A stretch of DNA of 64,000 bases, taken from Sistotremastrum niveocremeum HHB9708. Lineage: Eukaryota > Basidiomycota > Agaricomycetes > Sistotremastrales > Sistotremastraceae. The notes below the pieces were generated by a model, which saw nothing but the letters and a program-made list of their open reading frames with translations, was not told the DNA's origin and did not search any database. The number at the start of each line of letters is the position of its first letter. Position 1 is the first letter of the stretch. Both the position numbers and the translations under genes were made by a program. The stretch is taken from contig KV419398.1 in the NCBI GenBank assembly GCA_001630475.1, positions 1,091,825-1,155,824 on the forward strand. The letters run 5' to 3'. Positions 6,236 through 58,000 of this stretch are shown piece by piece.

Positions 6236-7583
6236 ATGAACATCAAGTTCGGGTCTTTCGATAGTATATGTCAAACCGCCGCTCTAATTGTATGCCCCTT
6301 GGTGGGGACGGAAGGAAATCGTGAACCGAGTTGTTATAGTCGAAATGTTTTACTTGGAGGGACTCTGATCTTCCAGCCTTGTGAGTACTGCCCTCTGAAC
6401 GATGAATTGAAATTAACTTCGAGGATGTGTTTGTAGCAACGTGTTTCGTTCATATCGCGGCAGTCATGGTAGCTGCCATGATGATCAACCTTGTCACCAC
6501 AAAATACATAGCTCAGAGTACGTCAAGCCTTTTTGATTTGACAATTCCACAGAATGACCAATGATCCACGCTAGCTCGCCTAGAAATGCTTGTGTTCCTC
6601 TACTTGTATGCCATCATTGAATTTATGGCCATATTCTTGGATTCGGGTATCATTCACACGGCTAGCAGCGCTTATATGGTAAACTTATTGAATTCCCGAC
6701 TCCTTACAATCTATTCTGACTGTCTTAGGGATTGGCTGCGCTTTATACCAGTCTAGTAGCAGCTGCATATTGCTGCTTGTTGCTAAATGGATTCGGGGGA
6801 TTTGAGATTGCGAATTATGGGCCTCTCGTCCCTCTCAAGGTAAGCGAGATTGACAAATATTCGACATTAAGAAGGACCAACTAATCTGCCCTTCCTTGCC
6901 ATTAGCGGCTGTCTCTAGGATGTCTTGTCGTCTTCAGCATTACTCTTTTCATCTCCACGGCAACATTCAAATCATCCGCTGGACTGTCAGCTTCAAAACC
7001 CATCGGGTTGTGGATAATCCATTTCTTGTGGCCCCTGTTCACCGTCGTGTCCACTGTCGTCATCCAGCTCTACCTCACCATCACATTTGTCCATGATAAA
7101 TGGCTAACGGGCTGCGTCCTCCTAGGCGTCTTTTTCTTCGCAGCAGCTCAAGTCCTTCTTTTCGCATTCAGCGTGGAGATCTGCAACTCCATCAGTCATT
7201 ATATCGACGGCTTATTCTTTTTCACGCTCTGCATGCTGCTTAGCGTGATGATGGTTTACAAGTATTGGGATTCGATGGTGAAGGAGGATCTTGAGTTTAG
7301 TGTTGGACAGAAAAGGAATCCGTGGCAGGTTCCAGAGGCGGAGTTGCAAGCCTCTGAAGTCGCACAGGATAACTCGTATCCTGACTCTCTCGATATTACG
7401 GACCAGCGAGATAGGCACCTTGCGTTGTCTTCGTCTTCGTCTTCGTCGGTCGAAGACTACGGACAAGATAACGGTTATCGGTCCGTCCTGGCAAGATACC
7501 CACTTATTGACAGTGAGCGACACAAACGACTCCCGCCCATTCCTTCAAGCCCGCGTCATTCTTCCCACCGCGGCGATCAATGA
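6236..7583 (+). CDS. CHS7: Chitin synthase export chaperone CHS7 family, paralogue A, 372 aa
   Basis: This multi-pass ER protein is expected to help chitin synthase leave the ER. Five exons (6236-6380, 6437-6517, 6575-6678, 6729-6839, 6906-7583) sum to 373 codons. Motifs of the family are clear: [20 protein letters not shown] at the N-terminus, [57 protein letters not shown], and [20 protein letters not shown] followed by VKEDLEFSV. About seven hydrophobic segments are seen, with a polar Ser-rich tail. A second copy with the same gene structure lies at 41774-43079 on the other strand. Confidence 0.92.
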
Positions 7584-18237: not shown

Positions 18238-21200
18238 TTAATCATCCTTGATCGACTTGGCGCGTGTCTCTCCCGCTGTCATCCACAGGTTGACAAGAGA
18301 TTTTAAGCCAACTAGCTTATCTTTCAATTGGTTGCGTGCGAGGTGTTCTTGAACGTCATCTTTTGGAATTTCCCAGAGGACAGACATGCAAATTTCGACC
18401 TGTCAGGTTCAACCTCAACCAAAGTGTGGTCAGTATGTGAAAATGGGCGTACCTTGTTTGCGAGTTCGGCCAGAGATTGATCCAAAGTCTCGCCGACCGC
18501 CTCGGCAGCAACGTCCAAACGACCGAGCAGCAAGTCTGCGCCGTCAGTGAATATATCTCCTCGATTGCGATCAACGAAGTTGCGGAAGACAAGCTGGGAA
18601 ACTGTTAGTTGATTCCAAGCAGGTTATAGATGGTCGCTAATATTCACCTTCTGCCGAGCCACACTGCCTTTCCCTCGTTCTTCCATAGCCAGATCGTACC
18701 CATCACCCAGCTGATCTTGAACGTGCGGAGAAAGACAACGAGACACCTCCTTCTGCTCGTTGCTCATTTTGCTTTTGACTTCAGCCATAATCTTCTTCAT
18801 GACGACTTTGGTTTCTTCATGTGCGAGATCACCCTGAGTCTTGCACCGATCTTGCAGTCCGGCAGGGGCGGAGGCCTCGACTTCCTGGAGAAGCTTCTGA
18901 ATGTGTCTGGTAGCACTCTTTTCGACATCGGCGAAGAGATCGGATTCAAAGACTCGGGACCACGAAGAGGCGATCTCTGTTGTCAAGGGGTTGACCAATT
19001 CGGCATTCAGATCACGACGCCATTCGCCGCGACGGCGGAGAGCTAAACGAAATTTCGATCACCAGAATTCAAGAACATTAACATCACACTCACTGGCTCG
19101 GTACGTGCCCCAGTGCATGGAAGCAGCAAAGGCATCGGAAGTCTCAACTGCTGCAGCCTCTGCCTTACTAGCGCCCGATTGGCAACGATCCTCAAGCCCA
19201 TCACGGAATTTGACTTTCAGACTGGCTACTGTGGTAGAAACAATCTGGTCAATGACCTGTAATATGCCTTAATACAGTGTAGTGCGAAATTTAGATGCAA
19301 CCATACCTGCTCTAGGCGTAGTGCTATACCAGTCGCTTTTCCGACCGGCTTCGTTTTAGGTTTCTGTCCGCCGAGCATAGCGTCGATGTCCTGGAACCAT
19401 TCCTCTTCGGAGGCCATGCGATACAGCCTTTCGCCGGATTGATCGACGATCACACTCTCGTCATCATCGGGATACGACTGCCATAGGTCTCGAAGGGCCA
19501 TCCGATCTCCCAGGTTTACTCCTTCTACGTCTTGCAAATAGGAAGAGATTCCCTCAATGAAAACTTTGAAGCGCGACATGAAATTCCTCGCGGCGCGTTC
19601 CCGCGAGGTGATGGTGAGATCATGACACCAAGCTTGCAGGGCCGGTACACCTGTGTCAGGTTTGTCCAGGAAGCACGTTGGTTCTCCATCACCCTTCACT
19701 TGCTCTGTTGGAAACGTTGAGGCATGACAATTGTAACGATAAGGATGAGCTTACTCGTCAGGCGAATATAATCTCGCGAAGAACACGTGAAGACGGGAAG
19801 ATCGATTGCCTCATAATCTACGAGAGCAGTCACTATAGCCGATCGAGTAGAGTAAAAACCAAATACTTCTCAGATCTTCCGATGGATCAAAAGTATCAGG
19901 GTTGTTCTGCTCGGCGGCTGCCTCTACACAAGTAAGGCATTCAGTAAGTCATCCGATGTCCGGTGTCGTGAAGACCCTTACGATCAAGTTCTCGCAGACC
20001 AACTCGGAAATCCTCCTTGAGAACGTCACGAGAAAACTACGCCGCCGATTTAGTTCAATGCCTGCCATCACAAGCGTGAAAGCTACTGACCTCGGATCGT
20101 TTCAACGAGCAAAACGCGTTCTTCTTCTTCTGAACCTTAGCGATGGTCTTCTTGAGATTCGCAAGTTCGTCGTTAGCTTTCTTGCGATCGGCTTTCGCGG
20201 TAGTTAGGCGTTGCTTGAGAGATTTCAGTTCGTCCTCTTTCTCCTTGATCTTCTCCTTGAGGGTCTCTTCTGTGATGACCTCTTTGATTTCCTGGACTTC
20301 GTCGTCATCCTCGGCTTCGCCGTCTTTGTCCGAGTCTGAGCCATCGCTGTTGTTGCTGCCTGCATCGGATCGATCGTCGTTGTTGTCGACATCCATGTCC
20401 TTGTCACCTTCGTCCTCGTCTTTGTCTTCGTCGAGGTCGGATAAATCGTCGTCATCGTCGTTGATGAAACTATCATCAGATCCGTAGTCACTCCTTCGTC
20501 GTTTTGGTGAACTGCCATAATCGCTGCCGACACTCTTGCGCTTCTTGCCCTTAGGCTTGTTCTTGGCTTCGAAATCGACCGGTGTATATTCCTCCCCATT
20601 TCGCAGAGCCTCGAGATGGTTCCGGTGATCGTCGATGACGTCTCGCAAGGTCTCGACTTCCTTGTCCAAAGCTAAAGTGTCTTCAGTAAACCCGCAGTCA
20701 ACGATTTCGAGCTGGTGTACCTTTGACAGCCCGCTGAGCCTCAGCCTGTGTTGCAGTCCAAGTGCTCATCTCGATAGTCGCTTCGTCGATCTCGTCAGTT
20801 ATCGCTTGCAGCTCCTCGTTTTCGTCAAGATTCAGGGCTCGTATAATTTCAGAGCAAGAGATATCGTCAGTCTTCGTGGCGATGAACGTGATGCAGCTGT
20901 CGTCATAGCTTGAGAAGTACCAAATGCTACATCAGCAATCGGATAGAACGATTGAGGGTGTCAACTTACTTTCCGTCTGATCGAATAAATCAAAGAAAAT
21001 AGAAACGGTAAGCAGACATTCATTATTGAATGACACCGAGGGAACCTTACCCACTGAGAGTCATCAGCACGAGCTAAATGGCATGAAATGTGATCACTCA
21101 CTCATCAACTGAGTCCTAAATGCTTCTCCGAGGAGGTCTAAGCAAGCGACGATGCTCAGAAGCTGATCCAAGAGTGGCATTTGCAGTCTACATACCTTTT

Positions 21201-22927
21201 GCAGTTTTATCGTCGACAGCTCTGCATCAAAGGAGTGCAACGTCAGAAAAGAAGAACCAATGTGATGGATTCTGACCTCGTGATAGGTGCAGCAATCCAA
21301 ATGCAGTCGCATTTCTTCATATAATCTCTCGCAATCGCGCTTCGAGCCGCATTAGCATCCGCCACACCGGGAAGATCTACAAGAATCGCCCCAGTACTTA
21401 AAGCAGCCGCCGGGCATCGAACTTGGACCAGGCGGATCAAGGGCCATAGCGCGGGTTCATTATCCTTCTTCTTATCCTTCTCTCGTTGGGCCTTGTCTTT
21501 CTTATCTTTGCTGTTGCGCTTTTGATCCTTGGAATCGATGTACTTCCCGATCTCCTTAGCAAACATCTTGGAGTCGGGGGCACAGATTCGCTTGGTGGTG
21601 CCAAGAATTTTAGCAATGGCTACATCCTGGTCAGCGTACACATGTGCAGGGTGTTAATTAGTCATACCAGGATGGCGCTTAAGGATCTCATCAGGATCGG
21701 ATTTGGCCAACTGCTCAATGGGCATCAAGGGATGTACAGCATGGACCTGATACAGAGCTTAGTACAGCGTTCAGAAGAATCAGAATCACGACCCACTTTG
21801 TGCCAAGCTACACCTGCCTCGCTCCTGAGGTCAGTGCTGCGACGCACGTTCCCATCCTCGTCAGTCAGTTCCTCCAATAAGATGGTCAATTCGGCTTTCC
21901 ATTCCTCAAGAGTCAGGAAGGAGACGTCGGCATCAATGGTCTTCTTTTTGTGGTGAGAGATCTCAGTTATAACAGCAGTGCAAGCTTTCAAGGATCAGTC
22001 GATTGAAACATGAAAGTACTGAAATATCACCGACCTCTCATGCCGCTAGTGGGGACGATATTGTCTATGAAAAGATGACGTCAGACTTCATGATGCTCAG
22101 TTGTCGAGAGACGTATACTATACCATCGAGGACAGCGTTCAAAAGGGAAGATTTTCCGGCACCCGTCGCGCCACAGACGGCAATCATAGTCTTGGGGGAA
22201 CCTTGCTTTGTCAAACTGTTTTGGGTGAGTAAGTCTTCACTCGTCGTCAAGAGGAAAACGCACTCGTCAATCTCTCGGTACCACGTCTGTGCTCGACGTC
22301 CTTTGCCAAGCTCAATCTTCTTGACGAGGGTAGCGAGATCTTGAACCATCCCAACGCCATTTTGCAGCGCGTTTTCCGGTGTATATTCGATGTCTTGAGC
22401 ATCGGTGTACACAGTATACGAAGGAGCTTTTGGAATAGCTGGCGCTCCGGGCTTCTGAGCATTGATCTGCGACTGGCCCGTCAGGCGATCCAAACGACAA
22501 AGCCGATCGTGTTCTCACATTCTGGTGGGACAACGGTGTGGGACCAACGGCTGTGGCACCAGTCGGCAACGCGTCGACTGGCTCCGGCTTGATTGTACGG
22601 GTGGTATTGGCAAGGTTACTCTGAAACGGGAACGATAAACGCGTCAAAACGCGTCGATTTCACAGGAATCAGCAGTTTCGGCACTCACAGATGGAATCGT
22701 GGCGTGGGTGTAGTTCTCCACCGATGAGAAAGGAATTGTTGGTTCAACGCGTTCTGATTTGACTTGTATGGTCGAGTATATCGGCTACAGAAGAGGGAAG
22801 TGTGAGCCGTCAGTTCCAGAAGAGGTACAAAGGCGACGGAGAAGAAGCGGCGAAGGAACCGAAAACGAGGGAACCCATAAGGAAAGGCACTAACTTGATT
22901 TTCAGCCTCTCTGTCGTGAGGCGCCAT
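18238..22927 (-). CDS. SLIP-GC-like nuclear GTPase (dynamin superfamily)
   Basis: A long multi-exon gene starting MAPHDREAENQ at 22927 and ending KSIKDD at 18238. The first exons are disordered and hold VKSERVEP and IKPEPVDA, which look like SUMO-site consensus (ψKxE). The GTPase core is readable: G1 GATGAGKSSLLNAVLDG (about 22,150), G3 DLPGVADAN (about 21,375) and G4 FIATKTDD (about 20,870). It is followed by a Lys/Arg nuclear-signal-like patch (KPKGKKRKS), a very acidic run (about 20,290-20,470), a coiled coil (ETLKEKIKEKEDELKSLKQR) and a long helical C-terminus. Vertebrate SLIP-GC (NUGGC) is a nuclear GTPase limiting AID-linked genome damage; the fungal role is unknown. Exon borders were only partly resolved. 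It is divergent from the helicase-AAA gene. Confidence 0.75.
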
Positions 22928-23915: not shown

Positions 23916-26900
23916 ATGAATCGCAAAGCCAATCTTTCCCGTCACTTGAAAGACATTCTCGGAGGACAGAAGCCTCTGGACGAGACGACTGGACCTCTCT
24001 TTCTTGAGGCTATATGCGACCAGTCGGACCTTCTGACTTGCTTGAAAACTATACGAGGCAACGCCAATGGCCTCTCGCTCGTACAACAGGCGATGCGCAT
24101 GGACATATCTACCCCCTTCTTGAACGGCATCGCTGCTACCTTCATTTTTCATCTGTCATCCAAACCGGAGGTCGCCAAAGTCGCCGACGGCATGTATATC
24201 CGAGACCTGCTCCTCGCCATTGTCGAGCCTGACATATACTGGGCTCAATTAATTGAGGAGTTCAAGGCTGGTCGACTTCAAGAACGTGCACAGCAAGGCT
24301 TCGCCTGGCTCCTACTCCAACTTGTGTCGCTGCGTGACGCCGAACGCGCCGCCCCATACCGACAGTTGGCCCAGGATCCAAAGATCTTGAATACCTTGGT
24401 CACATCAAGGCACTCTCAGATACGAGCTCGTGGGGCTCTCATTCAGCACTTGGTTACCCTTACCAAGCCAGGATCCTTCAAAGGTCTCCAGTACACACCA
24501 GGCGGCCGCCATGACAACGATTTTGAAAACTTCAGAAAGATAGCCATCCTTCCCACTTCGGACGAACTGGAGTCGACAGAGAAACCTTTTCTGCGCCCAG
24601 CTAGTACTCTGGCCGATGTTTCTTCCGAGCTGCTTCTTACGACCCATCTCGATAATCAGTTTCGTCTTCTTCGCGAAGATATGATTTATGAGATGCGAGA
24701 CGAGTTGCAGATTGCCCAGGGGAAGAAGGCAGGCAAACATCGCGGGCGCGTCCTGAAGCCACTCTACGTCCATGGCATGTATACTCAACGACAGGTGCAA
24801 TGGCCGGGGCAGGGGCAGGGACGAGGCCAGGAGGAGAGACTCGTCAAATGGGGTCTCATGCTCGAATGTCGCGCAGCCCTTGGTCCACAAGATCAGACCG
24901 TACAAGTTCGCAAAAAGTTCTTCTTGGAAAACAAAAATATTCTTCGACATCAATCCATGGCATGTCTTATGGACGGCAACGACGTTTTGGCTTTCGCCAC
25001 TATTCACCGAGATGAAGATCTCCTCAGCAAAAAGCAATCCATCATCGTCATTCAGATTCAAGGTTCCCAGGTTACTCGCCCTCTACTTCAGCGTCTGAAG
25101 AGCCCGAAAGAATTGAAACTCTTCCAAGTTGACACCGCGCTCTTCGCGTACGAACCGGTTCTCAATGCACTGCAGAGTATGCAACGCTTTTGCCTGTCTG
25201 AAGACCTATTTGACTGGAACGTGACTCGCAATGTGGGCATCGTGTCTGGTCCCCTCAGCGAGAGAGCGGAACGGGTGCAGCATCAAGTAGGGCAGGACCT
25301 CCGAGCCATGCTAGAAACGCAGCGTACGGTCTGCCTTGATGCCGCTCAGACTGCGTCCTTGTGTGCAGGTCTATCGCAGAGAGTCTCCCTTATACAAGGA
25401 CCCCCAGGTGTGTCACGTTCAAGTTCGACGCTCTGCGATCGCATTGACAGTCCTTTATAGGAACCGGCAAGTCTTTCATTGGGGCCCTTCTGGCCAAGAG
25501 TATACATGATCTTACTCAGCAAACTATCCTCGTCGTCTGTTATACGAATCACGCCTTGGACCAATTTCTTGAAGACCTCCTAGATATCGGGATTCCGATG
25601 ACAAGTCTTGTCAGGCTGGGGGGGAAATCGACGCCCCGAACATTGCCCTTCAGCATACAGACTCTCTCTCGAACAAGCTCTCCCAGACGAACCAAGTCAG
25701 ACTGGGACGTGATCAATGTATTTCGAGAAAGAGCGAAAGAACTATCTGAAGAGCTGCATCAGACCTTCCGGGAGTATCAATCTTCCAACGCCTCCGACCT
25801 GGATATCCTCGAACATCTGGAATTTCAGCACTCAGAATATCATGCCGCTTTCAAGGTTCCCGATCCTACTGATGACATGCAAGTAGTGGGCCACAAGGGA
25901 AAAGCCGTGAAGCCCAACTATCTGTTAAAGCGTTGGGCAAGTGGCAAAGACGCCGGTCTATTCAAAGCTGCAATCAACGTGCAGTCCGCTTCGCAGATCT
26001 GGAATTCTACCAGGGCATTCCGAGACGATCTGTTGGACACGTGGAGAGCAGAAATGCTAGAGGAACAAATTGGTCAATTCTCCACGTCCAGTGTTCAGTA
26101 CAATAGTTACTGTAGTTGCTTGGAGAGCCTTTTCAACACCCAACTCGGCGCCCTTCTATCTCAGAAACGCATCATTGGTTGCACCACGACAGCGGCAGCA
26201 AAATACAGAGAGGACATTGAATCGGCATCTCCTAGTGTCGTCCTCGTCGAGGAAGCCGGCGAGATCTTGGAAAGTCACGTTTTGACAGCGCTAGGGGCCG
26301 ATGTCAACCAACTCATCTTGATCGGAGACCACAAGTATGTTTGTTCTCGCGTGCAATTTTCTTAGTGTAATAATTCACATCTATCCCAGGCAGCTCCGCC
26401 CAAAGGCAGCCAATTACCTGCTCACAGTAGAGAAGGGCGATGGTTACGACCTGAACAGGAGCCTCTTCGAACGACTTGTTATCTCTGGTTATCCTCATAC
26501 AACATTAAGACAACAGCATCGCATGCGTCCCGAGATTTCCTGCCTAGTTCGGGAACTGACATACCCTGAACTTATGGACGGGCCGAACACTCACAATCGC
26601 CCAGACATCCGTGGTCTCCGAAACAATGTTGTTTTCATCAGCCACGAGCGCGCTGAAGAAGAAATGAAGGGCACTGAAGAACGAGATACAACGACATCGA
26701 AGCGCAATATGTGGGGCCTACTGCACTGTCACTGGAAATATATTGATGTGCTTTGTTTAGGTTTGAAGCCCAAATGGTCTGGAAAATCGTACGATATCTG
26801 GCACAACAAGGCTACGGAACCGAGGATATTGTCGTCCTTACTCCATATCTCGGACAATTGAGACTCTTGCAGGACACTCTGGCCAAAGAACATGATACCA

Positions 26901-29900
26901 TATTGAGCGATCTTGACACGCATGATCTCGTCCGAGCCGGCCTTATGGATCCCGCTGCAGCCAAAGAGATAAGGAAGCCCCTTCGACTGTCTACTATCGG
27001 TAAGCCTTCTGCCTTGTCTTCAGCCGCGAGATAGATCCTGATCAGAACGCAGATAATTATCAAGGAGAAGAGAGCGATATAGTCGTTGTGTCGCTTACAA
27101 GAAGCAATGCCAATTGTGATATCGGATTTATGATAGCTCCCGAGAGGTTGAATGTTCTTCTTTCAAGAGCTCGGAACGGTCTCATCATGATCGGAAACTC
27201 CAGCACTTTTAGGGGCTCTCGTAAAGGCGGAGAATTGTGGAGCAGATTTTTCAGCCTGATGAGCAAGAACGGACACATGTACAGCGGGCTACCCGCAAAG
27301 TGCGAACGACATCCAGCGCGTACCACAGATTTAATGTCGCCGGCGGATTTCGAGGAGAAATGCCCAGATGGTGGCTGTTCTGAACCCTGGTGAGTCATTT
27401 CTCATGATCAAGACTTAACTGGAATGCTTTCTGACGGGACGGACTCAGTGGCGCACATTTGCCTTGCAACCACGATTGTCCCTTGAGATGCCACCAACTC
27501 TCAGACCATACCAAATTCCCTTGCGAACGAATATGCAATTCGAACTGTGCTAACGGCCATTCCATGCAGTGGAAATGTAGCAAGGGCCCTTCCCTCCAGT
27601 GCAAGAGATGCATACGCGAGGCAAAGCTCGCGGAAGAGAAAAAGAAGCGGGAGTTCGAGCTACAGGAAAAGCGTGATGCAGCGCGGCAAGAGCATTTAAG
27701 GGCGATGGCTGAACTGGATTCTCAGCTTGCGGGAGTGGCCGAGAGCCTGAAAGACCAGCAGCTCACGGTAGAGATGCAGCGTGCCCTCGAATCGAAACGC
27801 CAAGAACTCCTGCGAGCGAAGGAACGAGCCGCGAGCCGCCCCTTGGCCACTGAGCCCGTCCATCCCCCAAGCGGTTCGACGTGCGCGACAGATCCATCGA
27901 CAAGAGACGCTCCTGCGAACATCGACACTCGAAGTAGTTCACCTTCACTCGAACCTTCTGCTGAGACAAAGCAGGATGCCGCACCGCTCGAGTCTGCGGC
28001 TCGCTTGGATTGGCAACGGCAGAAAGACATCGACGGCGCTATCAACCCCGCGATTGATTCTGTCATGGATATGACGGGCCTGGAGGATGTCAAGCAACAG
28101 ATCCTACGCATCAAAGCAAAAGTCGATACAGCCAAACGTCAGGGAACAGACCTCAAAGGGGAGCGATTTAACGTATCGATGCTGGGAAATCCAGGGACTG
28201 GTGCGTTCAGCTACTTAGTGGATGGGATAAAATTTTGACAGTGCTACGCAGGGAAAACAACTGTGGCCAGACATTACGCCAGATTTTTGGCCTCTATGGA
28301 CGTTATTCCCGGCCACGTGTTCGTCGAGACGACAGGTTCGAGCCTAGCTAATGATGCGGTCCCCGGAGTAAAGAAGAGCCTGGAAAATATCAAGAATGCT
28401 GGTGGAGGCGTTATGTTTATTGACGAGGCATATCAACTTGTCAGTGAGACCAACGTCTCTGGGAAGCAAGTCCTAGACTTCCTATTGGCCGAGATGGAGA
28501 ATCTCGTTGGTATCGTCGCTTTCATTTTTGCCGGATATAACAAGGAGATGGAAAAATTCTTCGAACACAATCCCGGACTACAAAGTCGAGTGCCTTACAC
28601 ATTGCAGTTCCAAGACTACACAGACGACGAACTGCTGGACATGTTGAGGAAGAGGATTGAGAAGAAGTATAATGGACTCATGAAGCTTGAAGGAGGCCAT
28701 GGTGGTTTATACACCAGGATCGCAGTTCGTCGCTTGGGTCGTGGCCGTGGCTGCCCTGGTTTTGGAAATGCCAGAGCTCTCGAGAATCTCTTGGCCAAGA
28801 TAGGAGAACGTCAAGCCGAGCGTCTCAGCAAGCTTCGTCGGACTGGCTCAGCTCCAGATGACTTTACCTTGACAAAGGAAGACTTGATTGGTCCTAGGCC
28901 CGCGGATGTTCGAAAAGATAGCAAAGATAGGAAAGCCTTGCAATCTCTGATCGGCCTAACGCAAGTAAAGCAATCCGTTGAGGAGTTGTTCGCCATGACG
29001 GATACCAATTATCTGCGAGAACTCAAAGAGATAGAACCTTTTGCCATCCCTTTGAATCGCGTTTTTATCGGCTCACCCGGGACCGGGAAGACGACAGTTG
29101 CCAAGCACTATGGGCAGATTCTAACAGACTTGGGCCTTTTGAGTAATGGAGAAGGTCGGTCCCGCCCTGTGTTCAAAATATCTGAACTCTGATAAGTAGA
29201 CAGTGGTTATCAAAAATCCTTCCGACTTTATCGGTGCTTATATAGGACATTCTGAGTCCCAAACCAAGGCAATTCTAGCTGCTACGCGCGGCAAGGTCCT
29301 TATTATCGATGAGGTATCTAGATGATCTTCGCTCGAAAAGGCTCCAAACACGACTCATTGCTTTTGCAGGCTTACATGCTGTATTCAGGCACAGGTGGTG
29401 GTGGCAATACCGAATCTTTCAAGACCGCTGTCATCGACACCATCGTAGCTGAAGTACAAAGTGTACCTGGAGAGGACAGATGTGTATTACTTCTGGGATA
29501 CAAGAAGGAGATTGAAAATATGTTTCAGGTAAATAAGCGCCTCATTTTCTTTCTTTCAGGATCTAGCTCATGCAGTGACTTCAGCATGTGAACCCAGGTC
29601 TAGCTCGGCGATTTGCTATAGAGAACGCCTTTCAATTTCAAGACTACACAGACGAAGAATTGGCAAAAGTTCTAGACTGGAAGCTCGGAGTCCAAGATCT
29701 GACGGCGACCGACAAGGCTAAGCAGGCGGCTCTTGAGGTTCTCAGCAGGAAGCGGAATCGTCCCAACTTTGGTAACATTGGAGAGGTCGAAAATCTGCTC
29801 AGCGAAGCAAAGTCACGTTACCAAGGGCGACAAGCTTTGTTACCTCTAGCTCAACGTTCGCCTGACGCGCCATTTGAACCTCTTGACTTCGATCCTGATT

Positions 29901-31444
29901 TCAATCGTGGAGACCGAGCAGGTGACAATTTGGTCAAACTCTTTGAGGATGTCGTCGGCGGCGATGAAATCGTACAGAAACTTCGTGAGTGGCAGCAAGT
30001 CTCGGAAAATATGAAAGCGGTTGGGCAAGACCCGCGAAAAGTAGTCCCAACTGCCTTCATTTTCAAGGGCCCGCCTGGTAAGCAAAAGTCGCCTTTTACA
30101 ACTCAAAATCATGCTGATGGACAGCTACTTTAAGGAACGGGGAAGACAACCACTGCGCGAAAGATGGGTCAAGTTTACTCCGACATGGGATTTTTGTCCT
30201 CTTCCGAGGTAGTTGAATGTTCAGCAACCGAACTCGTCGGGCAGTACGTCGGACACACGGGTCCAAAGACTCGCAATGTCTTCACGAAAGCCCTGGGTCG
30301 TGTGCTCTTCATTGATGAAGCTTATCGCCTTGCCGAAGGACACTTCGCGAAAGAGGCCATTGACGAAGTTGTCAGCATCATGACAGAGGAGACGTTTCGA
30401 GGAAAGCTTATCGTCATACTCGCGGGGTACGACAAGGATATGAACGACCTCCTGTCGGTCAATCCGGGGCTCTCGAGCCGCTTCCCCGAAGAGATCTATT
30501 TCAAAAACTTCTCTCCCGAGAACTGCTTGAAGATCCTGGCGCTCAATTTACAGAAGCAGCGAATCCGGTTAGAGGCACTTAATTCCCCATCCTCTCCAGA
30601 ACACGCGACTATCTTGGATCATTTGAGACAGCTTTCTGAGCTCCCGGAGTGGGGTAACGCCCGCGACATGGAGACTTTGTCTAAGAAAATGATCACCGCG
30701 GCATTCTCTGATTCATCGGCTACCCGCTATCAGGATGAAAACGGTGCGACTACGGGCATACTTCTGCCATTCCACAAAGGACTCGTTTGCATACAAGAAA
30801 TGCTCTCCAGTCGATCAGAGAGAGCCAAGAACACTACCTCCCGGAACATTCAAAGAGGCCTGAACTCTCGTGTTCTACAGGACCCCACTCAACGCCAACT
30901 TGAGCCGCCTGCCCTCAATTCCGCGCCTCCCAAGGTCCAAACTAGTCGACCGTCGAAACCAGCCCATCAGGTCGCCGAAAGCAAAGACTCGTCCGATGTG
31001 TCGATATCAGATGGGCGCGACGACGGTGTCACTGATGAGGTGTGGAATCGCTTAAAGCAGGACAAGATCGCAGAGGAACGCGCTCGGGAGAAAGCGCAAG
31101 AAGAGCTCGAGCGATTGAATGCGGAGGTGGAGACAGCGAAACAGAATGAGAAAGAGATCGCGAAGAAGCGCAAACAGCTCGAAGGAGCGCAGGGACAGCA
31201 CGATGAATTGTTGCGTCTCCGAGAAGAGGAGCGACTTCGGAGTCTTGCATTGAGAACGGCAGAGGCGAAAAGAGTTGCTGCTTTGGAAGCAGAGGAGAGA
31301 AAGAAGCGGGAAGAAGCAAGGGTTCAGTCAAAGATTCGGAGGATGGGTGTTTGTGTGGCAGGCTTCCAATGGATCAAACAAGCCGACGGATACAGGTGTG
31401 CTGGCGGCGGCCACTTCTTAACCAATGCACAGCTCGGTCTATGA
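23916..31444 (+). CDS. NFX1/ZNFX1-like SF1 helicase fused to three CbbX-type AAA+ modules, 2,329 aa
   Basis: Eleven exons (23916-25407, 25461-26334, 26390-26710, 26761-26999, 27053-27389, 27449-28200, 28252-29154, 29204-29313, 29370-29528, 29585-30077, 30135-31444) sum to exactly 2,330 codons. Residues 1-490 form a helical region. The helicase follows: GPPGTGKS (about 495), VLVEEAGEILESH (about 760, the ZNFX1-type Walker B), IGDHKQLRP, QQHRMRPEI, DNYQGEESDIVVVSL (975) and VLLSRARNG. A Cys/His-rich segment (about 1,057-1,140) resembles NFX1 zinc fingers, then comes a coiled coil. Three AAA modules have Walker A GNPGTGKTT (1,335), GSPGTGKTT (1,614) and GPPGTGKTT (1,890), each with a DEAY Walker B. 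A second coiled coil precedes a short tail (GVCVAGFQWIKQADGYRCAG). All four nucleotide sites look intact. Relatives act in RNA silencing and antiviral RNA sensing. Confidence 0.9.
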
Positions 31445-37558: not shown

Positions 37559-40500
37559 ATGGCTGAGAACCTTGAACTTGGGACTTTCAAAGGGACCAAA
37601 GGTCGTGTCACTGCTGTTCGAACGAATATGTTCGAGATCACTAGTTTACCTTCCCGACCAATCATGCATTACGATGGTATACAGTCTCATCTCTCTCCCG
37701 AAGAATGTCACTTCTCACCTTAGTTTTGTCGCAGTCTGTATGTACCTACGTTCTCCGAATATTCTTTGGTTCAACACCTGGATATGCTCCCAGCTTATTT
37801 ACCCGAGGTCAGGAACGGGGCACTTGCGCGAGAATTAGTGGACAAAATGTGAAATTTACCTGAAGTGCAACACAAACGTCCGAATGACACACGATTACAG
37901 GCAAACCATGCATGCCCACATTTTCGAGCCGAAGTGTGCCCTCGACGGCAAATACAATCTGTATGCCGCCAGGAATCTGCCATTTCCAAACCCAGCAGAC
38001 GCACGAGTCAGTATCTTTCGTGCCGTCCAATCTGCCCGAGACTGAGATTAGGGGAAGTTTACTGTTGACGTGGGCCGCATTCAGTACACGGTCCGCTTGA
38101 GGAAGGTTAATGAACTTGGTTTGGAGTGCGCCGCTCTTCTCAGCACGGCGAATGTTTCGTCTGATCTGAACCTCCAGAGCAATTCGTACATTCTTGGATA
38201 CTCGGACAAACCATACCGTAAGCGAGGCTGATGCAATGGCAGCATTTCAGGTCTTGCATGTCATAATTCGGCATGCCGCCATTCAGTGTGTATATCCGAC
38301 ATTTTTGAGACATCTCTTTGACTATGACTGTTCCCTCCGTCCTGACATTCAGAAAGAACCCCCACACTCGAAATGCGATATTTATTGGTACGGAAACGAA
38401 AGTCCTAAGAAACGGCCTGATCGCTTGGAAAGGCTACCATCAGTGGGTAAATACCAGCTGCTCTGATCGCATCTTGACTCTCTCTTTAGGAGTATACGAC
38501 CCTCTATTAACCGCCTGTATGTCAACATGGACACGACAGCTGCTGCGATGTGAGGATTTCTTGGATCTTTTGCAATCCCTGACTCAACTCTTCTCAGGTA
38601 CCAAGACGGTCGCCTCATTGACCTTTGTCTGAGCTTTCTGGGAAAACAAGACATTTCATACCTTTCATGTGCATACATGGAGACTGATAGGCGGAGTTTC
38701 TCCCGGCTCGACCGTTTTCTCAGAAAGCTCAGGGTCACAATCAAAGTCGGGAACAGAGCCGAGAGTCGACCCCGTCAGATCACTGAACTCGTCCCGAAAG
38801 GAACTAGATATAAGTTTGAGTCCGGAGGCGTTGAAACTACAGTCGAGGTAAGCATTAAAGCATCATGAAGCTTAAGTTTTTGAAATATTGTTCGTCAGCG
38901 ACATTATCGCGATCATCACAACATAGCTCTTCAGTACCCAACCTTGGTGGCAGTCGGAATAGGCGACACGGAAGTTTTCCCCATTGAGTTCCTGCGTGTC
39001 GTCACAGGCCAAATATTCCGAGGACAGATCCCACCGGAGTCCACAACGGAGATGCTTCAGTTTTCTAAAGCAAAGCCTGATATGCGGTTGAGGCAAATCA
39101 TGGATGGCGGCCATCTTCTGGATCATGAAAATTCTCCCGTCATGCGCAGCTCGGGTATTCGAATTTCTCGCACTCCGGCAGAAGTCCGTGGTCGCGTCCT
39201 CGACCCGCCGATTGTAAGATTCCAGGAAACGAGCCAGGTAACGACATCATGACACTTTTTCCCTTGAGTGAGCCAATGGGTGTCGTTCTAGATCGTGAAT
39301 AAGGGAACCTTCAATATGGTTGGGCGGAAACTGGCGTCCCCCGCTGTCATCAAGGCGTGGGCTGTCGTCGTCTTTGACACAACAAACGTCCAAGTTGTTG
39401 CTGATTGGGTCGGATACCTGCGGCAGAATTGTATAGATTTAGGTCAGTCTCTTCAGGAACTCCTATAATTTGCTCACCTTCTATTCAAAGGCATCAGTGA
39501 GTCATTACTAGAGTCGGAAGACCGAGGCCGATCGCCTGATGTTCTTTAGGGATACTCGTGGATCAGCCTCCCATTTTTCCACATAACCCATCAGCAAATA
39601 TTGAACAGGTTGCGTACACTTCTCGCAGTCCAGGGAAGAGAAGAGCTCTGACACGTGTTTAGATACTTCTTGACGCAGCTAATCGCGCTGTAGCCGACGC
39701 AAGGCGCAAGGCGGAGGAGCTCGGCCTAAGCCGGAACATTGTTCCTCGACCAGATCTGATAATAGTCATCTTACCTCCTGCTGTTGAAGACTTGAAGAAC
39801 CGAATCAAACACTGGGGCGATTCGGGGGCAGGCGTCAGTACACAGTGTCTGGTGAGCATTAAGATCAACCGCTCTCACCCGAACTCCGAGAACACAAAGT
39901 TAATGATAAATCATTAGATTGGCGATAAATGTCGCAGGTTGACACCACGAAATCGTGACCAATATTATAAGAACGTTGTGTATGTACACGAAAACGCTCG
40001 TAGTCTTCTTTACTCACGAATGCACAGCTTAAAGTAGAACATTGTTGATGATTTATGTGGCACCACACTCAATCATCTGCGTTTTAGGATCAATGCAAAA
40101 CTTGGCGGGACCAATTTTCATCTCACAGGAGACCATAACGCGCCAGACGCTATCCGTTGGGTCTATGAACGTCCTTCTATGATTGTTGGTATGACGTCCT
40201 AATAGCTGTTATGGCCAATGTCTAGGCTGCTAAAGTATAATGCTAGGGGCGGATGTGAGCCACCCCGGTCCAGGACAGACCCTACCATCATTCAGTGCAG
40301 TCGTGTCTTCGGTGGACCCTAAAGCCGCGAGGTATGTTGCAGCTAATCGCGTTCAGGAGGCGAGAGTCGAGCGCATCGTAGATTTGGCAGACATGATCAA
40401 GGCAAAAATACTCCTGCCTTCAAGATATAAGCTCATTCATTCCAAATAGAACTCCTTGAGACTGTTTTGGCAGACGCGCAATGATGAGCGGGTAACTTGG

Positions 40501-41359
40501 TCTCTGACGCCGCGAGACTGCTGGCCAGAACGGATATTGTTTATGCGCGATGGTCTCAGTGAGGGTGAATTCACTGAAGTCAAAGACGACGAATTGGCTG
40601 CTTTACGAGGTGATCCTGCTGCCTAGTATTACTCGGGATATTGGACTAACTGAAGAACGACAGAGGGCATCAGGTCCTTTTTCGCCGAACTCAGACGGGT
40701 CAAACCAGATTTCGCTTTGCCGGCAGTTGACCCACCCGTCAAGATATCGTACCTTGTAGTCATCAAGCGACATCACGTCCGCTTCTTTCCTAGATCTCAA
40801 ACCCTTACCGATGACTCGGGCAATGTCCATCCCGGCTTCGTGATGGACCACACCATTACAAACCCGAAACATCGTACTTTCTTCCTGCAATCCCAGGCTG
40901 GTCTTCTCGGAAGTAAGTTCATTAGGACGAGTCCAAAGATGAGTATGACCTATCCCGTTTTCTAGCGAGTCGCCCCGCTTTATACACCCTGCTGCACGAC
41001 GAGAACGGGTTCACGCCTGATAGCTTGCAAGAGCTCTGCAATGGCTTGTGCTACCACCACGCACGTTCGACACGAGCAGTGTCGATTCCTGCGCCAATCT
41101 ATTGTACGTGCATTCTACTACGGGTGTGAATTCATAAGTAATTTACTTATCTTCATCTAGCTGCTCATGTCAGTTCAAATGAAATTTGAAAGATTGTTCG
41201 CTAACATCCAGCCAGATTGTCAGCCGGCGCGGAAAGATTCATATGCCTCAAGATCATGATGGTGCTTCAACCGCAACCGGCGACGTTGACTGGGAATACT
41301 GGCGAGATAACTTCAAGAAGACCGCGGACACCCAAGAACGTCTACAATATTGGCTATAA
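37559..41359 (+). CDS. AGO: Argonaute (PAZ-PIWI) protein
   Basis: A multi-exon Argonaute with all domains readable. The N-terminus has [20 protein letters not shown] and [23 protein letters not shown]1785 has [23 protein letters not shown] has [33 protein letters not shown] has [10 protein letters not shown] and KINAKLGG-type [15 protein letters not shown] has [49 protein letters not shown] and the end PIYSAHIVSRRGK. The catalytic DEDH residues therefore all appear present (D of GADVSHP, E of VERIV, D of RDG, H of SAH), so slicing activity is plausible. The last exon ends QYWL. One PIWI intron (40402-40449) starts with GC. The first intron near 37,677 was not resolved. Confidence 0.9.
40402..40449 (+). 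other. Likely GC-AG intron in Argonaute
   Basis: This 48-nt segment follows ATGATCAAG, begins GCAAAA and ends AAATAG. Removing it joins LADMIK to [14 protein letters not shown] in frame, as in other Argonautes, and leads to RDGLSEGEF. Reading through hits a stop. No GT donor nearby keeps the frame. Confidence 0.65.
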
Positions 41360-41773: not shown

Positions 41774-43079
41774 TCAATAGCGTCCGTTTTCATAACCATT
41801 ACTAGCAGGAGGATACCCCGCATGTCCGGGTCTGTAATAATCTCGTCCTCTCTCTCCTCCAACAAGCGATGCAGTCCCCTGATAGCTACTCTGATTATCA
41901 TCAGGTTCATAATCCACTGCACCCGGTGTTCCTCCTGCGAGGAGAGGATCCTTGGGCGATAATTCCCACACGGCGGCTTTTGATCCGACACTGAATTCCA
42001 GATCTTCTTTCGTGATCGAGTCCCAATATTTGTAGACCATCATCACACTCAAGAGCATAGCGAGAGTGAAGAAGAAAAGACCATCGATGTAATGCTTGAC
42101 GGCGTCACAGATGGTTACGCTGAACGCGAAGAGGACGATTTGTGCGACCGTGAAGAAAGCCACACCGAAAAGGATGTCGCCAATAGGCCATCTGTCATCA
42201 AGAGTTCGAATAACAAGGATGAGCTGGAGGACGACGTAGATGACGACAGTGATGAGAGGCCACAGGATATAGATGATCCATAATCCAAGGGGTTTTGTCG
42301 GTGCAAAGCCAGCGAAACCTTTGAAGGTGGCAATTGCGACGAAGAACGCAACGCCAAAGACTGCGAGACATGATAGACGGAGGAGCTGAGCGAGGACGAA
42401 GGAGGAAGCGATTAGTCGTTTGTTATGCCCAAAAAGGCAAGTGGATAAAAAGGCTCACCCATAGCGACAATGGCGTCCCATCCTCAGCAAACTGGAATCC
42501 AACAAATCCATTGATCAACAGGCAACAGTACGCGGCCGCTATTAATCCCGTATACACTGCTGCAAACCACTAGAAGCCACTGATCAGCAAGTGATGCATG
42601 ACGTCGGAGAATAGACACCTACGGGATAAGCACCACTCGCGGTAGGGATCACACCTGAATCCAAAAACATGGCGAGGAGTTCGATGACAGCGAACATGTA
42701 GAAGAACATGACGATCTCCTTGCGGCCTGGATGAGGGATAGTATGCCATTAGGAAAGCCACCTTGGAAAGCACGATGGAAGGTACGCACCAACAGCTGTA
42801 TATTTACTGCGGACATGGTAGATCATGATAGCCGTCATGATGATGGCTACGATATGGACGAAACATGTTGCTTCAGAGAGTCCATCGTTAGCCTTCGGAG
42901 TGGACCGCTGGAGCATGTTGCAACTCACAAGGCTGGAAAATTAAGGTTCCTCCGACTTGGACATTTCGACTGTAGCAAGTAGGTTCGACGCCCTGCCCTG
43001 CGGTCGAGCCTACTAATGGACAGACTACGAGAGCAGCAGTTTGACAGAGGCCATCAAAAGAGCCGAATTTGATTGTCAT
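41774..43079 (-). CDS. CHS7: Chitin synthase export chaperone CHS7 family, paralogue B, 352 aa
   Basis: Five exons (42929-43079, 42790-42870, 42623-42726, 42459-42569, 41774-42385) sum to 353 codons. Motifs match paralogue [96 protein letters not shown] and [11 protein letters not shown]. Exons 2, 3 and 4 have the same lengths as in paralogue A (81, 104 and 111 nt) with the same phases. The C-terminal tail differs, being Tyr/Gly-rich and ending NGYENGRY. The expected role is ER export of chitin synthases; the two copies may serve different synthases or stages, which is inference. Confidence 0.92.
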
Positions 43080-55012: not shown

Positions 55013-58000
55013 GAGTGACAGCGAGAACACTCCACGACCTCGTCGTTCCGGAAGGGAGAGGAAGATTATAAGTAGATTGGGTGAAGGTATGCTCGAAATG
55101 CCTAATCGTTATCGCGAGTCTCATCCTAAATTCAGACGGTGGCCTTTCCGATTCTCAGACTAGAAAGAGGAAACGATCCGTGCTCAGTGACACGGACGCC
55201 ACGGGAGATGAAAGCGAGCTTACCGCGCTATCTGAGATAGACAATGAAGAGCCAGAAGAAGAGCCAGAGCCGGAAATCGAGAGCGACCGCGACGATGCCT
55301 ATAAAGCACCAACTTACAAGGCAGCTCACACTAATGGCAAGCGCGTACCGAAACAAAAGGCTCCCAAGAAACCGCGTCTTGTGGCACCCAAAGAGCGCAA
55401 GCGGAAATCGAAGAAAGCCGTTCCCTTCGATATCACCCAAGTCGCCGCCGATATGACCATCAAGAATGATAATGCTTTATTCAGTAAGTCAATGGCAACG
55501 ACCACGCGGAATATTTCTAACCACCTATCAATGTATTCAGACGCTATATTAAATCCGGCATCCGCTCTTCAAACAACTGTCGAAGATTTCCTCTCGTCCT
55601 TCGCCCAAACCCCAAATCATTCATTAGCCGATCTTATGAACTGTGTACTACGGTGCTGTGGTTGCAATGATTCTGTCGATCAAGATCAGGTGGTCGATTA
55701 TGATGGCATTGTGGACGCGTTAGAGACTTTCACTGAAGGGATGCGCAACGTGAGTTATGTTCGCTATAATGCCCGCTTATTAGATTCACACACATCTATT
55801 GCTGTCTACAGGATGACTCTCCTGTATATCCCTTAACTTCCAAATTGCCTGCTTTTAAGCGATTCCGGAAGTCCATGGGAGAATTTCTCGAGCGGCTCGT
55901 GAAGTCAGCGGCAGAAGCAGGCGTTCTGCACGATTCTGATCTCCTACCTACCATCCTGCCTTGGGTGGTTGCCATGTCTTCTTCGGCCCTCAGAAACTTC
56001 CGGCATACGGCCACCAGCATTGCATTGGAGATCGAGACTGCTCTCTGTGATGTGGCATCAGCAGTGGACCAAGAAGTAGAGATCGTCCAGAGACAAATTG
56101 ACGGAGAGCGCAAGAAGAAGGGCAAAGCGGCCGGGGCTGGAAGGGACAAAGTTCTCGAAGCGAAGCGCAATGAAGTCAAGGAGCGGAAGGCGAAAATCGT
56201 GGAATTTATCAAGGAATTCTTTGACTCGTAGGTGTCCCATTTATAGGAATGGTTCAATTCTCATCCTGCTTTTTAGCGTCTTTGTTCATCGTTACCGAGA
56301 TCTCGATCCTTCGATTCGATCTGATTGCGTACAGGCTCTCGGACAATGGTTTCTCAAATACTCGGCTTATTTCCTCGATGGCTTAAACCTACGATACATC
56401 GGATGGCTACTCAATGACTCTGTCACCACTGTCCGATTGGCTGCTGTCAAAGCTTTGGGTGCTCTCTACGCCAAGAAAGACTTCTCCATCTCCCTTAGTC
56501 ATTTCACAGACAGATTCAAGTCTCGCCTCGTCGAAATGGCCATAGGAGACATCGATATTGGCGTTCGCGTCGCCACAATTGGCCTCCTCCGCAACATCGA
56601 CAGGCTTGAGGAGCATGAGAAGGACAAGCTATGTCTAATGGCCTTCTCGGGCGAACCTCGAGTTCGCAAAGCCATCAGCATCTTCGTGAAGGGGATCTGG
56701 GAAGAGGAAGTCGAAGAGCGCATGGTCGGGCAGCCTAATACTGCCAGAATGTTGAAACGGGTTGGAATCAAGGTCTTGGCGTCTCTCTTGGTCAAATGGT
56801 CGCAAGCCCTGGATCAGGTGGCCAGCGATCCAGATAGCCAATCTCAATCTCAGTCTCAAGGCGACAGTCACGGACAGATCAAAGAGATTAGCTGGCTCGT
56901 AAATGCCGCCGATCAACGTGGCCGCATGGCAATGATCGTCGAGGCTCTATCTGATGAAATTGACGTGATTGGCGATTGGAAATCCTTACTCGAGCACTTG
57001 CTGCTGGATCACTCCGCTGAAGGTGAAACTACGGTACAAAAAAAGGGAAAGAAGAAGCAGGCCCCATCGAACACCAATTCAGACGAGACCGCAGAAGAGG
57101 TTTCTCGACTCACCGAAGAAGAAGAAGGTGTAATGCTAGAGGTTCTCACGGCGGTCCTACGCATAGAATCTGGTGACGCAAAGGTTGGTATCAGTTGACT
57201 CGCCCTGCTCAGTTCTGACCAGTCGACTGCAGAACAACAAGGAGGGCGACGAAGCAGTCAATGCGGAAATCACTCGAGCATTAATTGAAGCCTTGCCCAA
57301 ACTGTTTGCTAAACACCAGACAGATGAGGGGCGGATATCCGAAGTACTGCTGATTCCGCAATGCATGGCTCTGGATATGTATCTCGAAATGAGACTGGTA
57401 CCCGTAAGTCTCGTGACTTTTGGCCGGACTGTGGCTCATCAAACTTAGGCATACGAAGCCCTTTGGGATGCCGTGCAGAAACAGTTTGTCACCCACTCTT
57501 CTCCGACAACGTTAGCACATGCAGCAGCAACGATTCATCACATGCTCAACGTGACTGCGCTTTCAAAAACGAATGCTACCAAGATTGCAGAACTCGAAGA
57601 CGACTTGTCCTCGTCTTTGCGGGATGTTGTGTCCTCAAAAGAGGAGCTTGAAGTTACAACGTTTGACGACGACGAGCTCATCGCCTTGACCGGCGTATGC
57701 TCAAGACTAGCAGTACTCATTCAATATAAGGACATGGTATCATGGATGGAAGAAAACGAAGATGGCAAGCAGGCATCGATTTGGGAGATATTGCGTGCCA
57801 TCGCAGAACGAGGAAAGCTTGGGTATAAAGAGGAAGAATACGTAAGCTCTCGCTACCCTCCAACAAGTCCTTGACCATAATGGCTGCTTCAGTTGATTGT
57901 TCAAATCCTTGATGTCCTTGTGATGCACGTCACCTGGAAAGTTGACGCGATTCCACAAGGGACGACCTACAGCCAGGACGACGACCGTTTCTGTGAACGC

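Follow-up and report, generated by a model that had tools for sequence, protein, structure and literature searches.

The helicase part of the gene analysed here is of the ZNFX1 type. ZNFX-1 of Caenorhabditis elegans has been proposed to ensure that targeted transcripts stay accessible to the amplification of small RNAs. Hrr1, termed its Schizosaccharomyces pombe orthologue, has a role in small-RNA silencing (excerpts of PMC9276528), as do two further fungal helicases of this type, SAD-3 of Neurospora crassa and RnhA of Mucor (excerpts of PMC5384783). Mammalian ZNFX1 is by description a double-stranded RNA sensor (excerpt of PMC11574294). In its C-terminal region the human protein shares with the E3 ligase RNF213 an RZ finger that includes the catalytic Cys/His pair; RNF213 is itself a protein in which ATP binding and hydrolysis are possible in only two of six AAA units and whose core has been proposed to sense ATP/ADP (excerpts of PMC12075652); titles cited in a later review (PMC13196369) call ZNFX1 an RNA-ubiquitinating E3 ligase. 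Here we describe a gene in a 64,000-nucleotide (nt) stretch of the genome of the basidiomycete Sistotremastrum niveocremeum HHB9708 (assembly GCA_001630475.1, contig KV419398.1, positions 1,091,825 to 1,155,824, hereafter the window). Its predicted product is very probably a genuine single-gene fusion that joins a ZNFX1/Hrr1-type superfamily 1 (SF1) helicase to three CbbX/SpoVK-type AAA+ modules in tandem, in the order helicase, Cys-rich segment, AAA1, AAA2, AAA3 and Cys/His tail within one predicted reading frame. Both halves are of known kinds; what sets the protein apart is that they are combined, and that elements of the AAA modules have been lost unevenly.

23916..31444, + strand: whole gene, 11 exons, 10 introns and 2,329 amino acids (aa), from a splice search and an intron-retention check

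The gene model was predicted from sequence alone, using a splice search for GT-AG introns with its ends fixed beforehand at the ATG at 23916 and the stop at 31442-31444 given in an earlier note on this DNA; 23916 is the first ATG after an in-frame stop, in an open reading frame (ORF) from 23898. Eight of the ten introns were kept as found, whereas introns 4 and 7 were altered: resetting intron 4 to 27000-27052 regained the helicase motif TIDNYQGEESDIVVVSL and resetting intron 7 to 29155-29203 regained GEVVIKNPSDFIG, both altered junctions being crossed without gaps in alignments to ZNFX1 and CbbX. All ten introns are GT-AG and 49-59 nt long, and retention of each one singly gave an early stop (10/10). 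The spliced coding sequence of 6,990 nt corresponds to 2,330 codons, namely 2,329 aa and the stop; about 107 stops would be expected in a random frame of the same composition. The count of 2,330 codons and ten introns in the earlier note agrees exactly with this rebuilt model and, since the model is open after splicing and meets an early stop if any of its ten introns is retained, the coordinates, codon count and motif claims of that note are correct at the sequence level. Pfam models matched over the protein are AAA_11, AAA_12, three AAA and two AAA_lid_6. Walker A motifs start at aa 495 in the helicase and at aa 1334, 1612 and 1891 in the AAA modules, with DEAY at aa 1396, 1675 and 1954.

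Exon 5 encodes the late helicase motifs and the beginning of the Cys-rich part, exon 6 the remainder of that part, a stop-free helicase-to-AAA linker and AAA1 as far as its Walker A. Exon 7 encodes AAA1 together with the Walker A of AAA2, and exon 10 runs from the end of AAA2 into the start of AAA3. Any gene boundary would therefore fall within an open exon, and a reading as separate genes was rejected on the ground of domains sharing exons. The sequence matches thus agree with the proposed single chain, in which an SF1 helicase is followed by a Cys-rich segment and then by three AAA modules of the CbbX type, with ZNFX1 and CbbX as the closest solved structures.

24435..24707, + strand: pre-helicase region (aa 174-264), aligned to human ZNFX1 residues 387-475 in the structure-library alignment
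25398..25474, + strand: Walker A of the helicase, GPPGTGKS (aa 495-502), with intron 1 (25408-25460) inside it, from motif reading
25538..25564, + strand: CYTNHALDQ (aa 524-532), aligned to the same ZNFX1 stretch
26237..26263, + strand: helicase motif II VVLVEEAGE (aa 757-765), from alignment
27061..27171, + strand: QGEES (aa 979-983) and ERLNVLLSRA (aa 1006-1015), both late motifs of the helicase, from motif reading
27301..27611, + strand: Cys-rich segment (about aa 1059-1142) with the intron 27390-27448 inside, aligned with ZNFX1 to query residue 1132

Human ZNFX1 (PDB 9q9z) was the best solved relative of the helicase half, with an expectation value (E) of 1.5e-84, followed by a pre-mRNA-splicing factor (9l5r, E 1.6e-30), Upf1/Nam7 and Aquarius. 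The ZNFX1 match consists of four stretches, including one ahead of the helicase and one that runs through the Cys-rich part as far as ZNFX1 residue 1425. The protein contains motifs I, Ia, II and III of SF1 helicases as well as later ones, the core of motif II being EEAGE (aa 761-765). The two proteins have in common the motif wording NHALD, VEEA, GDH.QLRP and YQGEE, an alignable pre-helicase region and a Cys-rich segment behind the helicase. They differ in that the match to ZNFX1 stops at residue 1132 of the 1,183 queried, that 9q9z is absent among the 60 listed of the 66 matches for the AAA half, and that the RZ finger placed in the C-terminal region of human ZNFX1 (excerpt of PMC12075652) was not found in the scanned pieces of the fungal protein. 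A helicase of the ZNFX1 kind thus appears here with AAA motors and no RZ finger found, whereas the animal protein bears the RZ finger.

Among the NCBIfam models, which are built for prokaryotes, the best for the helicase was the IGHMBP2-family helicase with 139.5 bits vs a cut-off of 348.9. A single-sequence fold of exon 1 reached a predicted local distance difference test score (pLDDT) of 42.0, and Foldseek gave a best E of 0.031 with nothing at E 0.001. As a separate observation, the second NCBIfam match of the helicase part (about 25400-27600) was the 'PLuB system helicase-like protein' (E 6.3e-28, far below cut-off), and after it two anti-phage models matched weakly, also far below cut-off.

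28050..28874, + strand: AAA module 1 of the CbbX/SpoVK type, at about aa 1289-1546, with the intron 28201-28251 inside its Walker A
28344..28379, + strand: module 1 stretch LANDAVPGVKKS (aa 1370-1381), at the position of the CbbX pore loop LVGQYIGHTA in the alignment
28932..29827, + strand: AAA module 2 (about aa 1566-1810), FIGAYIGHSE pore loop retained and sensor-2 Arg lost (GNIG)
29924..30784, + strand: AAA module 3 (about aa 1843-2110), LVGQYVGHTG pore loop and GNAR retained, Walker A split by the intron 30078-30134

The three AAA modules are spaced by 278-279 residues, and CbbX (3zuh/3syk) was the best solved match of each (E 3.4e-31 in module 1, 8.5e-34 in module 2 and 3e-30 in module 3); EccA1 structures also match each module. 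Every module has a Walker A, the Walker B DEAY and NPG(L/F)xxR. AAA_lid_6 was matched in modules 1 and 2 and unmatched in module 3, and it gave no match at E 0.001 elsewhere in this genome. In detailed comparison with CbbX, the aromatic pore loop is retained in modules 2 and 3 and lost in module 1, and the second-sensor stretch NAR of CbbX corresponds to GNAR in modules 1 and 3 and to GNIG in module 2. The claim of four intact nucleotide sites consequently holds for the Walker A/B motifs, all of which are present, and does not extend to equivalence of the AAA modules, because module 1 is without the pore loop and module 2 without the sensor-2 Arg. A view of three equal remodellers is too simple, since module 1 lacks the pore loop that threading modules use.

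The NCBIfam equivalog scan covered modules 1 and 3, in which SpoVK (E 1.9e-44 and 2.1e-50), CbbX and EccA profiles matched, all of them far below the equivalog cut-offs (151.7 and 171.2 bits vs 422.95 for SpoVK). Module 3, modelled with 20 aligned sequences from midway through its Walker A onward, reached a pLDDT of 92.2, and its predicted fold was nearest to CbbX chains (E 3.6e-13, template-modelling (TM) score 0.69 by query, root-mean-square deviation 4.7). The modules therefore resemble CbbX, SpoVK and EccA in structure or profile matches and in the module 3 fold, and differ from them in falling below the equivalog cut-offs, in standing three in tandem, in the elements lost from two of them and in the fusion to a helicase. 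A Foldseek search also returned giant-virus proteins with CbbX/SpoVK-type AAA modules, the best of them from Catovirus (E 2.1e-12), some of them named stage V sporulation protein K, and a contig of the viral collection (L131) holds a CbbX/SpoVK-type AAA module with 35% identity. Three of the ten introns, at 25408, 28201 and 30078, cut Walker A motifs (helicase, AAA1 and AAA3), the first and last of them at an identical codon and phase; the chance of this is about 0.0003 when judged after the fact. A DNA pattern for the P-loop had 6 matches across the window vs 3.47 expected, which is uninformative.

Relatives of the AAA trio were sought in prokaryote and viral contigs by alignment scans that matched at least 591 and at least 600 stretches, of which 80 of 458 confirmed prokaryote loci and all 14 of the confirmed viral-collection loci were kept; the fungal genome searched was the window's own. 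One protein scan of each collection gave no close relative of the whole trio. Three exact Walker A motifs per ORF were found in 6 ORFs at these 94 loci (pitch 272-282), two in 11 and one in 71. The bacterial tandem CbbX-like proteins L086, L129, L083 and L082 are alike in having three AAA modules with a Walker A pitch of 272-278 residues, and unlike in that a ZNFX1-type helicase was found at 0 of the 94 loci (80 prokaryote and 14 viral-collection; ORFs of at least 80 aa, E 1e-3). The fungal modules also stand apart in a tree of 45 module rows, in which the three split from the 42 bacterial rows (97/76) and module 2 groups with module 3; the fungal branches are long and flagged as unreliable, and this last grouping is flagged as possible long-branch attraction. 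Because the fungal branches are too long, the module duplication cannot be dated. The middle modules of two of the loci, L105 and L109, likewise appear by eye to have altered pore loops.

Similar fused proteins probably stand in fungal databases under generic names. In published excerpts, an Inonotus transcript takes the name of its best match, NFX1-type zinc finger-containing protein 1; in Aspergillus a protein is labelled 'NF-X1 finger and helicase domain protein'. These names from two other fungi fit the earlier remark that related proteins are annotated only generically. No published description of a helicase-AAA fusion was recognised in the titles, abstract beginnings and passages of the open-licence papers listed. 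Cryptococcus Znf3, with C2H2 fingers and a putative ribonuclease domain, was considered as a published counterpart and rejected, no helicase being described in the excerpts on it; the same applied to the RDE1-5 factors.

37559-41359 (ends approximate), + strand: Argonaute-like gene with many short introns, partial splice model, ArgoL2 at 38884-39252 and Piwi at 40231-41102

Within this genome, a second ZNFX1-type helicase was not found, the helicase query returning 5 matches of at most 43.2 bits outside this gene. Nine other AAA_12 places have no NHALD motif in the scanned frames, and their motif wording is Upf1-, Sen1-, MOV10-, Dna2- or Aquarius-like, or unclassified (labels given by eye). 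Paralogues of the AAA part were not found either, AAA queries returning this gene only, or with it two weak matches (23.4 and 18.2 bits). A profile search of the genome gave Piwi matches at at least five loci and RNA-dependent RNA polymerase (RdRP) matches at at least five loci, and the RNase III matches include pairs on contigs C1 and C6, which is a lower bound. The Argonaute-like gene in the window starts about 6.1 kb downstream of the helicase-AAA gene, with its Piwi matches 13 kb away centre to centre (after-the-fact P for such nearness about 0.004 over the 5 Piwi loci and about 0.007 over the 10 Piwi and RdRP loci), and one RdRP locus lies at 70 kb (P about 0.02, likewise after the fact). 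The RNA-silencing link suggested in the earlier note thereby gains indirect support, from the genome's matches to Argonaute, RdRP and, in pairs, RNase III, the Argonaute-like gene in the window and the single ZNFX1-type helicase found.

Our preferred reading combines the fused anatomy with protein remodelling in silencing or RNA defence, and is offered tentatively, as a possibility falling somewhat short of probable. The N-terminal helicase would engage RNA of silenced or foreign origin, like its animal and yeast relatives, and the AAA trio may then pull on or reshape a protein of that ribonucleoprotein (RNP) by means of the pore loops that modules 2 and 3 retain. Module 1 would be mainly an ATPase with a structural or regulatory part to play, and a pair of chains could together form a ring of six modules. 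The likeliest setting would be small-RNA silencing or defence against RNA viruses or transposons, because the genome, which has Argonaute, RdRP and paired RNase III matches, yielded no further helicase of the ZNFX1 type when searched. A more specific version, which we consider doubtful, is a two-motor RNA-defence machine. Its helicase would bind selectively to RNA that is silenced or viral, and its AAA modules, forming a ring of six from two chains, would pull apart the protein attached to that RNA, be it Argonaute, RdRP or viral coat, as a fungal alternative to the ubiquitin-ligase output of animal ZNFX1. If the fusion does act in silencing, it would allow a one-protein test of the ATP coupling between RNA recognition and protein remodelling, and provide a natural contrast for the job of the ligase part in animals.

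Several points weigh against remodelling in silencing or RNA defence. The losses of the pore loop in module 1 and of the sensor-2 Arg in module 2 mean that part of the AAA trio may not thread anything. The proximity of the Argonaute-like gene is a single after-the-fact observation. The Cys-rich part gave no match to the Pfam NFX1 finger at E up to 1, and the RZ finger was not found in the scanned protein pieces, which lay outside the helicase core (aa 472-1042). A genome search for the RZ finger (PF20173) in six frames, exon by exon, was also negative, with a sensitivity that is unproven because 14 of 14 control genomes likewise gave no match over the cut-off. Hrr1 (999 aa), SAD-3 (1,160 aa) and RnhA (1,231 aa), compared by description, are much shorter, and therefore too short to hold this helicase part together with three AAA modules (excerpts of PMC5384783). 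According to the same excerpts, RnhA is dispensable for exogenously triggered RNA interference (RNAi), and a tree suggests that Cryptococcus neoformans is without an Hrr1/SAD-3 orthologue; this species has RNAi, as a published excerpt states, so the helicase type is not required for fungal RNAi.

The rival that survives best, unlikely as we judge it, is that the three AAA modules serve as a scaffold or switch that senses ATP, thread no protein and instead control the oligomer state, or else recruitment by the helicase, in the manner of the RNF213 AAA core. The elements lost from modules 1 and 2 would fit such a role, as would the precedent of RNF213, with two of its six AAA units active and ATP/ADP sensing proposed (excerpts of PMC12075652). 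Against it, each of the three modules has its Walker A/B pair, the arginines of the second region of homology are retained as well, modules 2 and 3 keep CbbX-like pore loops, and no RZ ligase finger that could be controlled was found in the scanned pieces or the genome. By description, RNF213 is comparable in being a giant protein with an AAA core and a tie to ZNFX1 through the common RZ finger, and it differs in having six dynein-like AAA units and an E3 module (excerpts of PMC12075652).

Rather less likely again is an RNA role outside silencing, be it in the quality control of RNA in general, in translation stress or in the recycling of nuclear RNPs. The solved matches that come after ZNFX1, namely splicing factor 9l5r, Upf1/Nam7 and Aquarius, would suit this explanation, and so would the IGHMBP2 family as the best NCBIfam model, below its cut-off; the silencing link of the present gene rests on genome context and relatives, and N. 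crassa and Mucor have putative RNA helicases that are more distantly related to the Hrr1/SAD-3 cluster (excerpts of PMC5384783). However, ZNFX1 lies far above the other solved matches (E 1.5e-84 vs 1.6e-30), and the nine other AAA_12 places of this genome, insofar as their wording was classified by eye, include Upf1-, Sen1-, MOV10-, Dna2- and Aquarius-like candidates. The weakest alternative, that a faulty splice model fused two adjacent genes, could draw on a model built from the DNA letters with start and stop taken from the earlier note, and is highly improbable given that exons 5, 6, 7 and 10 each span adjacent domains, that the exon 6 linker has no stop, and that each of the ten short GT-AG introns gives an early stop if retained.

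31352..31414, + strand: C-terminal Cys/His motif C-x14-C-x4-H (aa 2300-2320)

The tail, with YRCxGGxH and the ending QLGL, has a look-alike at the end of one further gene, at C2:454910 (L148 1501-2181, - strand), in which C-x16-C-x4-H lies behind a charged stretch (E 0.08); the tail pattern was found at three places in the genome, the third on C9, vs one in the reversed control. Upstream of the helicase-AAA gene lies a divergent neighbour (about 18300-22500, - strand). It has the P-loop GATGAGKS, which is GTPase-like, and the stretch VDLPG; its weak matches to RsgA_GTPase, MMR_HSR1 and Dynamin_N are all below cut-off, and by eye it resembles a dynamin-like GTPase. The window further contains two paralogues of the chitin synthase export chaperone Chs7 (6906-7583, + strand, and 41774-42454, - strand) and a cohesin SA/Scc3-like gene (56080-57198, + strand) with a stromalin conservative domain (E 1.4e-28).

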